Of a stretch of 64,000 nt of DNA, positions 9,560-15,337 are shown in pieces. This DNA is from Chthoniobacterales bacterium. GTDB taxonomy: Bacteria; Verrucomicrobiota; Verrucomicrobiia; Chthoniobacterales; Terrimicrobiaceae. The stretch covers positions 1 to 64,000 of the forward strand of contig JACSRU010000115.1 of assembly GCA_014879575.1 (NCBI GenBank), given 5' to 3'. The notes under the pieces were generated by a model that was not told the origin of the DNA, ran no database searches, and saw only the letters and a program-made list of their open reading frames with translations. The translations under genes were made by a program, and so were the position numbers. The number at the start of each line of letters is the position of its first letter. The first letter of the stretch is position 1.

Positions 9560-11161
9560 ATGTTGCAGCGGCCGGATTTGAACATTCTTCTTCGGGACAT
9601 GCCCCACAAGCCGGGCGTCTATGTGATGCGCGACCGGCTCAAGCATGTGATTTATGTCGGCAAGGCCCGGGATCTCCGCAAGCGGGTGGGCAGTTATTTT
9701 CTGCCTTCGCGAAAAATGGCAGCCGATCCGAAAACCCGTGCCCTGATGGAAAGTGTGTGGGATCTCGAATACCATGTCGTCCGCAGCGACGCGGAAGCCG
9801 TCCTCTTTGAGGGACGTCTCATCAAGGAATTCCGTCCGAAATACAATGTGAGCTTCAAGGACGACAAACGGTTTCTGCTTGTCCGGGTGGACCTCAACGA
9901 ACCGTATCCGAAGTTCGCGCTCACCCGTCTGCGGAAAGAGGATGGCGCCCGGTATTTCGGGCCCTTTGCGCATTCCGGCGCCCTGCGGTCCACGCTCAAT
10001 ACCATGCGCAAAAAGTTTGGCCTGCGGTCCTGCCGGGCGACCCTCCCCGGCGAACGGGACTTCAGGCATTGCCTCGACCACATCATCAAAAATTGCAGTG
10101 CGCCCTGTGTGGGCCGGGTGACACAGGAGGAATACCTGGGCCGCGTCGAGGCGGCGTGCGAGTTCCTCGACGGCCAGAGTCGGGAATGGATCCACCAGGT
10201 CGAAGCCGACATGAAGGCCGCAGCGGAGAAGCTGGATTTCGAGAAGGCGGCGCAACTCCGGAATCTGCTCGATGATCTCCGGACGACCACGCGCTCGATG
10301 ACGCGTTTCACGCGGAAGTCCCTCCCGACAACGATCCATCCAGAGGCCGACATCCGCGCGCTGCAGGAGGCACTTGACCTCCCGCGTCCGCCCCATGTGA
10401 TGGAGTGTTTTGACATCTCAAACATTTCCTCGACGCACATCGTGGCGTCCATGGTCCGGTTTCGCGGCGGCATCCCCGACCGCGCCGGCTACAGAAAATA
10501 CCGGATCCATGGCACGAAGGGGCAAAACGATTTTGCCAGCATGGCCGAAGTCGTCCGGAGACGCTACGGACGCCTCCTGCGCGAAGCCGCCAGGACGGAT
10601 CCCGATGCGGAGTTCAATCAGGAGACCGCCGCAGACGCGGTGGCGCGCGTGGAGACAGAGACCCGCACCACGATCATTCCGGATCTCATCATTGTGGACG
10701 GAGGGCGGGGCCAGCTCACCAGTGCCTGCAAGGCACTCCGCCACCTCGGCCTGCACGAGGCACCGGTCATCGGGCTCGCCAAGGAATTTGAGGAAATCTA
10801 CCGTCCGGGCCGTCCGCTCCCGATGAAGCTGCCGGAAGACAGCGGGGCACTGCGGTTGCTCCAGCGGATTCGCGATGAAGCCCACCGCACGGCCAACGGC
10901 TACCACAGCCTGCTCCTCAAGCGGCGCATCAGCGAAAGTCTTCTCGACGGGATTCCAGGCGTCAGTGCCAGCCGCAAAAAATCGCTTCTCAAGCACTTCG
11001 GATCGGTGGCCCGGCTGAAAAAGGCATCGGTGGAAAGGATTTCGGACGTCCCGGGAATCAGCACGACTCTTGCCGCCGCGATTCTCGAACACCTGGCTCC
11101 CCGTCCGGGAAAAACCAGCCAGGAAACAGAGTCCGTCCCGAGCGGCCGGGCGGTTACTTGA
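9560..11161 (+). CDS. uvrC: Excinuclease ABC subunit C
   Basis: About 533 residues, shorter than E. coli UvrC (610). Visible parts in order: GIY-YIG nuclease (PGVYVMRD ... VIYVGKARDLRKRVGSYF), a four-cysteine cluster CX12CX7CX3C ending in CSAPCVG, a UVR motif (AAEKLDFEKAAQLRNLLDDL), an RNase H-like nuclease (MECFDISNIS, VDGGRGQL), and tandem helix-hairpin-helix repeats near the C-terminus (IPGVSASRKKSLL, VPGISTTLAAAIL). It makes both incisions in nucleotide excision repair. ATG 9560 was preferred; a GTG at 9542 with an upstream GGAG is an alternative. The end overlaps the convergent START-like gene by 8 bp. Confidence 0.95.
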   Translation: MLQRPDLNILLRDMPHKPGVYVMRDRLKHVIYVGKARDLRKRVGSYFLPSRKMAADPKTRALMESVWDLEYHVVRSDAEAVLFEGRLIKEFRPKYNVSFKDDKRFLLVRVDLNEPYPKFALTRLRKEDGARYFGPFAHSGALRSTLNTMRKKFGLRSCRATLPGERDFRHCLDHIIKNCSAPCVGRVTQEEYLGRVEAACEFLDGQSREWIHQVEADMKAAAEKLDFEKAAQLRNLLDDLRTTTRSMTRFTRKSLPTTIHPEADIRALQEALDLPRPPHVMECFDISNISSTHIVASMVRFRGGIPDRAGYRKYRIHGTKGQNDFASMAEVVRRRYGRLLREAARTDPDAEFNQETAADAVARVETETRTTIIPDLIIVDGGRGQLTSACKALRHLGLHEAPVIGLAKEFEEIYRPGRPLPMKLPEDSGALRLLQRIRDEAHRTANGYHSLLLKRRISESLLDGIPGVSASRKKSLLKHFGSVARLKKASVERISDVPGISTTLAAAILEHLAPRPGKTSQETESVPSGRAVT

Positions 11162-11810
11162 CCGGATCGCTTTTCAAGGCGGATTCGAGGGCCTGCACAT
11201 TGGTCTTCAGGCTCTCGGGATTTTCGGACTTTTGCTTCTCGACCTGGGCGACGATCGCCTTGACCGTGCTGCGCATCTGGTCAATGGCCGGCATTTTGAG
11301 AAGTCCGGCCATGCGGGAACCGGGGATGACAAGGTTCGTATAGCGGATCAACGAGCCGTCCTTCCATTTTTCGATCCGCAGGTTGCCTTCGCTCGCCTTG
11401 GTTTGCATTGCGCGGAGGAGATGCCACTTGATGACGTAGCCGCCATCCGGCTCGCTCATAAGGGTGTTGCGGGCGGTGTAGAACTCATCGGGAAGGATCG
11501 GGACATCCACCCCGTAGTCCACTTCCGCCACGCACGGCGAGATTTGTCTGGCGACCTCGGACTTGATGATTTTGGGGACATACTGCTTCGCGGCGTTGTA
11601 ATCGCAAAAGACTGCGGCCACCTCATCGGGAGACGCCGCGACCTTTTGGTAGATCCGAACCTTCGGCCAGGGATTGCCCGCAACCTCCTCGAGGAGGACG
11701 ACCTGGGCGCCTCCGGACACTTCCTCCGTCTGCTTGGGATCCAGATCTTCCACCAGGGAGGCAGCCATCAAAAACGAACCGCTGAGGAGGAAGGCCAGGA
11801 GGGGTTTCAT
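11154..11810 (-). CDS. START/SRPBCC-like exported protein
   Basis: 218 residues with an N-terminal signal peptide (MKPLLAFLLSGSFLMAAS). The body resembles the START/polyketide-cyclase helix-grip fold: VRIYQKVAASPDEVAAVFCDY, then AEVDYGV, then GYVIKWHL and DGSLIRYTNLVIPGS. Such proteins hold lipids or other hydrophobic ligands; the ligand here is unknown. Its 3' end overlaps uvrC by 8 bp tail to tail. It appears to be a single-gene unit, with the queE region lying in the opposite direction upstream. Confidence 0.65.
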   Translation of the reverse strand: MKPLLAFLLSGSFLMAASLVEDLDPKQTEEVSGGAQVVLLEEVAGNPWPKVRIYQKVAASPDEVAAVFCDYNAAKQYVPKIIKSEVARQISPCVAEVDYGVDVPILPDEFYTARNTLMSEPDGGYVIKWHLLRAMQTKASEGNLRIEKWKDGSLIRYTNLVIPGSRMAGLLKMPAIDQMRSTVKAIVAQVEKQKSENPESLKTNVQALESALKSDPVK

Positions 11811-13833: not shown

Positions 13834-13924
13834 AATCGCCAAGAAAATTCCCCGCCGAAATTTCGGCCTTCCCGCCATTTGAGCAGAAAAATGCTGTTGC
13901 CTTGGACCGCGAGCGGGATGTCTA

Positions 13925-15337
13925 GTGGACAAGGTGAAACTCGAAAGGGATTTTCCAAATCGTAGATCGGTTCTTCTGGCGGTTCTGTGTCTTCTTTTCG
14001 TCTCGGGAGCCCAAGCCGCCGAGGAGAGTCCAGGGACGCTTCGTGCGCCGGTGACCCTGCCGGTTAGAACAGGGGAGGCCCTCGACGTCCCCTGCGACAA
14101 TGGAGTTTCCGGCGAACTGAGCGAGGAAGACTCGGATCCGAGCATCGGGGCGAGCGGCGATTTCTCCACTCCCTCGCCCCAGCCCACTCCGACGCCGGAG
14201 ACCACCCCGGTTCCGGAGCCGATCCCGGAGGTTCCGACGCCGGCGCCTGTCATCACTCCGGTTCATGCAACTTATCACACCCCGGACGCGGTGCCTGTCA
14301 TTGTGCCCGTCACGCCGTCGGTGTCTCCCTCCGCATCTCCACAGCCCAGCGTCGAAGTGCGACCTGTCCCCGAATCGAGCACGCCCCCCATCCCGCCGCC
14401 CCCGCACTCTCCTTCCTGGGCAGGGAAGCTGGTTCTGCTGGTCTTCATCCTTCTCTGCGCACTCTGGCTGGGCGCGGTTCCCTGGAGAAGGCGGGCGGCG
14501 ACCACACGCAAGGATTTCGAGTTTCTCGGGCTGGACAAACTGGGGATCCCGGACGCCATGCGCGAGGAATTCGTGCGTGTGATCCACTCGCGCAGCGGGC
14601 TCATCCTCGCGACCGGCCCGGCCCGCTCCGGGAAGACTTCCACGCTCTACTCGGCCCTCAGCCAGATCGTCCATGCGCCCGGACGCCACATCACAACCCT
14701 CGAGGATCCGGTGGAGTATGAACTCGCCGGCACCACACAGATCCACGTCAACAAACAGGTCGGTATCACCTACGAATCCGGTCTGAAGTCCCTCCTCCGC
14801 CAAAACCCCGATGTGATCTTCGTGGGTGAGATTCGAAACTTTGCCGCGACAAAAATCGTCCTGCGCGCGGCAGCATCCGGGCACCTCCTTTTTGGTTCCC
14901 TGCGCACAAAGGATGCCGCGAGCACAATCCTCCGACTCCAGAAGATGGGATTCCGGTTGGAGGAACTCTCCTCCGCACTTTTGCTGGTGATTGCGCAGCG
15001 CCTGGTTCGTGTGCTCTGTCCCTCCTGTCGGGAGGCCTTTTCCTCCACGGGAAGGGAATTGCGGGCGATCGGAGTGGAACTCACGCCCGGAGAAACGCTT
15101 TATCGCGCAAAGGGCTGCCCGACCTGCAAACGAACCGGCTATGTCGGCCGGACCGGAATTTTTGAAATGCTCGTTTTTGATGAGGAAATCCGTCAGGCTG
15201 TGGATGACGGATTGCAGGTCGCGGCACTCACCGAATTGGCAAAATCAAAAGGCTTCCGCGAATGCCACCAGGATGGAGTCCAAAAAATCCGGGACGGCAT
15301 CACGACTGCGGAGGAAGTCCTGCGGGCCATGCGATAG
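13925..15337 (+). CDS. Membrane-anchored GspE/PilB-like secretion ATPase fusion
   Basis: 470 residues starting at GTG. An N-terminal signal-like helix (15-31) is followed by a 130-residue Pro/Thr/Ser-rich stretch, a transmembrane helix (168-184) and a GspE/PilB/PilT ATPase core. The core has Walker A GPARSGKT (231-238), Asp box TLEDPVEYE (258-266), Walker B-like DVIFVGEIRN (296-305) and the zinc-binding cysteines C365, C368, C398, C401. The N-terminal N1E domain used to dock on the secretion platform is missing. The normally conserved His of the His box is Arg (R327 in GSLRTKDA). No pilin or secretin genes are nearby. Its role is unknown; it may be a divergent or regulatory motor. Confidence 0.8.
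   Translation: MDKVKLERDFPNRRSVLLAVLCLLFVSGAQAAEESPGTLRAPVTLPVRTGEALDVPCDNGVSGELSEEDSDPSIGASGDFSTPSPQPTPTPETTPVPEPIPEVPTPAPVITPVHATYHTPDAVPVIVPVTPSVSPSASPQPSVEVRPVPESSTPPIPPPPHSPSWAGKLVLLVFILLCALWLGAVPWRRRAATTRKDFEFLGLDKLGIPDAMREEFVRVIHSRSGLILATGPARSGKTSTLYSALSQIVHAPGRHITTLEDPVEYELAGTTQIHVNKQVGITYESGLKSLLRQNPDVIFVGEIRNFAATKIVLRAAASGHLLFGSLRTKDAASTILRLQKMGFRLEELSSALLLVIAQRLVRVLCPSCREAFSSTGRELRAIGVELTPGETLYRAKGCPTCKRTGYVGRTGIFEMLVFDEEIRQAVDDGLQVAALTELAKSKGFRECHQDGVQKIRDGITTAEEVLRAMR

Follow-up and report, generated by a model that had tools for sequence, protein, structure and literature searches.

A reduced GspE/PilB-type ATPase from a clade of self-anchored ATPases usually encoded beside CvpA

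Phylogenetic comparison has shown that a gene of a Chthoniobacterales bacterium, located at positions 13925-15337 of the plus strand of the window (the whole stretch of 64,000 nucleotides that was analysed), descends from a clade of self-anchored GspE/PilB-type ATPases, which as a rule have a short CvpA protein as partner. The C-terminal ATPase domain (CTD) is of a known type, and what is new here is the anchored GspE clade, previously unnamed, together with its conserved partner. The explanation that we prefer, with a probability of about 0.62, is that this clade would be coupled to CvpA and that the window copy would be a specialised non-motor derivative rather than a working secretion motor.

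The window gene and the architecture of its product

The gene is complete and encodes a reduced membrane-anchored protein of 470 aa. Its frame, from a GTG start at 13925 to a stop codon ending at 15337, is intact over its 470 codons, and the fused ATPase that the initial annotation had described here was recovered with its ORF, its motifs and its N-terminal layout. An artefact, either a misplaced start or a chimeric assembly in which an unrelated secreted protein has been fused to part of a GspE, would agree with the origin of the sequence in a single MAG (G000, 97.7% complete), with the weak ribosome site of the GTG start (judged by eye) and with the missing N2D; nevertheless, signal peptide, linker, membrane helix and CTD appear in the same order and in one frame in relatives, the frame upstream of the GTG is open for only 14 more codons without any other start, and the base composition by codon position is like that of the neighbouring genes. 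As regards the fusion this reading is already refuted, and overall it is hardly credible. A misplaced start was discarded on the absence of an upstream in-frame alternative and on the same layout in relatives, which are anchored too instead of being normal soluble ATPases. A minus-strand ORF at 13922-14884 was also set aside, as no support was found for it and the plus frame shows a strong family match.

The window protein exhibits two strong hydropathy segments, aa 16-32 and aa 169-185. The first belongs to a predicted signal peptide (aa 1-31, 13925..14017, plus strand; hydropathy 2.32), which consists of a KVK..RR n-region, a hydrophobic core and an AQA motif, followed by Ala, for cleavage at 31/32. 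The second lies in a single transmembrane helix (about aa 165-187, 14417..14485, plus strand; hydropathy 3.02), after which the sequence PWRRR follows, in line with the positive-inside pattern. Between them, a Pro/Thr/Ser-rich stalk is found at about aa 80-164 (14162..14416, plus strand), with a pLDDT mostly of 34-49, and residues 31-160 contain 48% Pro+Thr+Ser, including 33 Pro. The structure model shows two helices and an ATPase domain predicted with confidence, along with this stalk, which is disordered. Hydropathy, composition and model thus agree with the proposal that the docking domain has been swapped for a signal-like helix, a Pro/Thr/Ser stretch of about 130 residues and a membrane helix.

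A signal-like N-terminal segment similar to that of the window is found in the complete relatives of its phylum, and the N-terminal membrane anchor, the trait of the clade (accompanied by a signal peptide in this phylum), is present in the window protein. The second hydrophobic segment of the complete relatives is missing. The small beta-domain that follows the signal peptide in them was not detected in the window by profile scoring (-1.9 bits, with 305 of 413 scored shuffles as high); a degenerate remnant looks plausible by eye, but the profile score gives it no support.

The CTD occupies aa 200-470 (14522..15334, plus strand), without an N2D between it and the membrane helix. Its match to PF00437 (T2SSE) reaches 258 bits (cut-off 24.9, E 1e-76) and covers profile positions 118-370 only. 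Since the match starts at position 118 of 370, both N-terminal domains, N1D and N2D, are missing, and the N2D region is a gap for this protein in the family alignment. The initial reading of a lost N-terminal docking domain was therefore right for N1D, and had to be extended, as N2D is gone as well. The best PDB matches of the CTD model are PilF/PilB of Thermus (T. thermophilus) and Geobacter, and the equivalog cut-offs of TIGR02533 (GspE; 281 vs 630 bits) and TIGR02538 (269 vs 676 bits) are both missed.

All the motifs of the ATPase core were located on the plus strand, as had been proposed from the sequence. They comprise a Walker A GPARSGKT (aa 231-238, 14615..14638; GPTGSGKT in most members), the motif LEDPVEYEL (14699..14725; EDPVEYEL at 260-267) with the conserved E260 and D261, a Walker B VGEIRN (14822..14839; GEIRN at 301-305, GEMRD in most members), the His-box region GHLLFGSLRTKDA (14879..14917), and a zinc tetracysteine, C365-x2-C368 ... 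C398-x2-C401 (15017..15127). The protein departs from the Walker B pattern GE[IM]RD at N305 and, as also noticed initially, R327 replaces the second His of the His box. The alignment reveals that this change is not a family trait, as the window is alone in it among 17 aligned members.

The neighbours of the gene are ordinary housekeeping genes. An esterase-like hydrolase gene ends 91 bases upstream, the convergent gene for argininosuccinate synthase (argG) lies 31 bases downstream, and HflX-like, UvrC-like and QueE-like proteins (by eye from translations) plus a QueD-family protein are encoded here too. The contig (C51) holds no gene for a T2SSF platform protein, in accordance with the earlier remark that pilus genes are not found nearby; the other T2SSE and T2SSF loci of the genome, which encodes several PilB/PilT-type ATPases, sit on different contigs. 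CvpA is not encoded beside the window gene, and Colicin_V (PF02674) has no match anywhere in the genome. The family ATPase is absent from three other searched genomes of the genus, and the flanks of argG in genus and family relatives are unlike those of the window, so that synteny does not reveal whether the gene was gained or lost here.

A clade of anchored ATPases and its CvpA neighbour

In eight relative genomes, matches of 51-59% identity were found against a general PilB background of about 40%, and all of them except that of G010 are ATPases of about 640-660 aa. The complete relatives measure about 580-665 aa and consist of a signal peptide, a small periplasmic beta-domain with the pattern VVFQDGTKMHDVRTV...HMPKGVAEFPRQAIKSINGK, a variable and often Pro-rich linker, two hydrophobic helices, N2D and CTD. 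According to a family profile search, in which members are separated from other ATPases by a score gap (500 vs 446 bits), 12 of the 213 genomes of the order hold a member, that of the window among them. Another family of the class adds 4 genomes and a phylum sample of 388 adds 1 (G526), which disposes of the idea that the fusion might be absent elsewhere. For the G006 member, AlphaFold predicts a small beta-structure at aa 26-67 and helices at 142-172 and 178-204, followed by an N2D-CTD that superposes on PilF/PilB over 385 columns (TMt 0.89 to 5oiu_B).

The clade extends beyond this phylum. A first collection scan with the window protein alone as query gave no matches, and a second one, with the family alignment, retrieved mostly ordinary GspE/PilB but also an Omnitrophota locus (L129) with a two-helix anchor ahead of N2D. 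Wider surveys revealed anchored ATPases in three of 193 Omnitrophota genomes (G786, from which L129 comes, G931 and G844) and in two of 199 Planctomycetota genomes (G794 and G1044); a two-helix anchor that lacks a signal peptide is seen in these two phyla. In its succession of a hydrophobic helix, a basic loop and a second helix with a Pro/Gly motif, the anchor of the relatives is like PLDc_N (PF13396), the anchor found in cardiolipin synthase. Three members match PF13396 weakly (E 0.006-0.04, below the curated cut-off) and one matches TIGR04265 (cardiolipin synthase) with E 0.001, so the likeness would be only a resemblance.

A tree was built with 17 anchored ATPases from the window's phylum, Omnitrophota and Planctomycetota, to which 26 ordinary PilB/GspE of the same and further phyla were added. 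A branch with support 95/92 separates the 17 anchored rows, from three phyla, from the ordinary ones, and the position of the Omnitrophota rows among the anchored ones has weak support (86/74). In this tree, a PilB from a genome of the same class as the window stands beside that of a named Limisphaerales MAG, which points to Verrucomicrobiota as the probable phylum. The window protein was placed inside a 16-member group with support 99/96. As judged from the domain comparison, the N1D docking domain is what the membrane anchor replaces in this clade. N2D has been lost only in the window gene and in G010; as the relatives keep it, its absence is peculiar to these two. The initial reading stands in that the fusion is real and recurrent, and needs correcting in that neither the loss of N2D nor the His>Arg change is a general trait. 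In G010 (C306, L011/L040), the ATPase (9225-10574 in L040) lost N2D via a different in-frame deletion, its CTD has otherwise been well preserved, with a change at 1 of 92 invariant sites, and the adjacent CvpA gene (10581-11191) is broken by a frameshift.

A conserved partner in other genomes, whose search had been suggested initially, was indeed found, although the window locus lacks it. Of the 20 complete members, 17 show a Colicin_V (CvpA) gene with a product of 180-229 aa directly downstream of the ATPase, with a spacing of -81 to +49 bases. All the scanned partners score above the Pfam cut-off of PF02674 except that of G078 (23.4 vs 29.3 bits). CvpA does not follow any of the 182 ordinary PilB/GspE ORFs for which the downstream sequence reached 500 bases or more, a count that leaves out G094, whose ORF with CvpA is a family member cut by the contig end. 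The Fisher value of the pairing is 5e-22, which overstates it because the members are related; the pairing holds in three phyla. Adjacent CvpA is absent in four clade members (the window, G044, G110 and G844). As Colicin_V/CvpA is present in 152 of 213 genomes of the order, co-occurrence per genome is not informative, and only adjacency is. CvpA is predicted to hold 4-5 transmembrane elements; enteric bacteria need it to resist deoxycholate, and it has a possible role in export (PMC6705877). The partners of the intact members match this family, but differ in being short proteins encoded beside an ATPase. That these ATPases are almost always found beside CvpA in three phyla suggests an undescribed two-part envelope machine.

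Other genes have also been observed around these loci. The next gene after CvpA in Omnitrophota is that of an N-acetylmuramoyl-L-alanine amidase, so that anchored GspE, CvpA and amidase stand in a row at L129:3087-6365; at L214 (G844), an amidase-like gene comes directly after the ATPase, without CvpA. A PilT-family ATPase (TIGR01420, 421 bits) is encoded directly upstream of the anchored GspE and on the same strand in G027 (L046:9561-12669). Secreted proteins encoded close downstream of the ATPase-CvpA pair (L172:11589-12710, L174:11239-12360 and L175:8082-9308) open with a IKLKDGTALEGEI-like pattern that resembles the beta-domain of the ATPase, and they may share this domain with it. At L042:5383-6954 (G051) and L045:9451-11030 (G043), a small membrane protein adjoins the ATPase and further on comes a membrane protein, which in G051 carries an OmpA domain (PF00691).

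Reduction and constraint of the window copy

As read from the alignment and the tree, the window copy is a reduced and fast-evolving member of the clade, without N2D, second helix, detectable beta-domain or CvpA, a form seen in one genome. It differs at 15 of 91 CTD positions that are invariant in 15 other members, while the others, the distant G526 apart, show 0-5 changes at such positions; among its changes are TG>AR in Walker A, RQDPD>RQNPD, GEMRD>GEIRN and LHT>LRT. Its end branch (0.92, median 0.14) is the longest in the clade, again apart from G526.

These features could be those of a decaying relic, in which an orphan copy without CvpA lost N2D and its N-terminal domain and drifts, its frame being open by luck. 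The long branch, the alteration of invariant residues that include nucleotide-binding motifs, the lack of the partner, the absence of the gene from the other searched genomes of the genus, and the existence in G010 of a second member without N2D and with a frameshifted CvpA would all be in agreement with it. Nevertheless, all 470 codons are open, and coding constraint is still visible in the codon-position distances to G044 (0.32/0.23/0.59). When neutral decay to 15/91 changes was simulated, no stop appeared in only 1.75% of the runs (21% for the CTD alone), with indels uncounted. In addition, the CTD keeps the P-loop Lys/Thr, the Walker B Glu, E260 and the four zinc cysteines. The open frame and the codon pattern argue against plain pseudogene decay and, together with the simulation, they favour a retained specialised protein, decay being an appreciably less probable reading.

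Proposed working and significance

GspE/PilB motors are treated as soluble hexamers, which are brought to the membrane by separate docking and platform proteins. The window protein has the CTD, Walker A and B, the EDP motif and the zinc tetracysteine in common with GspE (type II secretion) and PilB/PilF (type IV pilus extension). Contrary to them, it holds a signal peptide and a membrane helix of its own where N1D would be, also lacks N2D, and has no platform gene on its contig.

In the intact members, the signal peptide would export the N-terminal beta-domain on a flexible linker, one helix would cross the inner membrane, and the cytoplasmic N2D-CTD hexamer would be held at the membrane without GspL/N1D docking. 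Judging from gene order, the clade most likely couples ATP hydrolysis to CvpA at the inner membrane, in such a way that ATP-driven movement would be passed to CvpA, standing in for the GspF/PilC platform. Regarding topology, after cleavage of the signal peptide the first helix would take the chain into the cytoplasm. The second hydrophobic segment of the intact members shows an LPxxG-like motif and is flanked by positive charges at either end; if it spanned the membrane the ATPase would be placed outside, so a re-entrant segment seems likelier, in line with the fact that the window protein keeps only the first helix.

The active site of PilB-type hexamers forms between domains, and an arginine finger in N2D completes it (PMC9765406), while PulE:PulF models place the platform contact on N2D (PMC10790770). 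As N2D supplies both, the lone CTD of the window protein is unlikely to hydrolyse ATP or to push a platform in the usual way. An active site shared between domains would also allow a mixed hexamer, in which this CTD borrows N2D from the PilB1, PilB2 or GspE of the same cell and tethers the hexamer to the membrane as a working motor or regulator. The several PilB/PilT-type ATPases of the genome and the intact CTD fold in the model are in accordance with this possibility; however, the window gene has no linkage with the genes of those ATPases, and Walker A, GEIRN and the His box are altered, which leaves it improbable. According to the explanation that we prefer, the window protein would be exported, anchored and folded, and may bind nucleotide via its retained P-loop. 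Alone, it could not form the N2D-CTD catalytic interface, and it would act as a specialised non-motor derivative, for example a nucleotide-bound switch between the periplasmic stalk and the cytoplasm or, alternatively, a modulator of another ATPase.

The open-access papers searched contain no account of a self-anchored GspE clade or of GspE paired with CvpA. More tentatively, and at odds that we place below even, anchored GspE and CvpA might constitute an undescribed two-component ATP-driven inner-membrane machine, distributed over three or more phyla (probably the PVC group plus neighbouring ones), with CvpA as platform or channel and without pilin, of which the window protein would be a non-hydrolysing motor derivative.

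The built-in anchor of this clade and its CvpA neighbour suggest a simpler way of wiring the GspE/PilB motor, and the poorly understood CvpA family gains a concrete candidate partner. The window copy, in turn, represents a natural test of how much of such a motor can go while the frame stays open.
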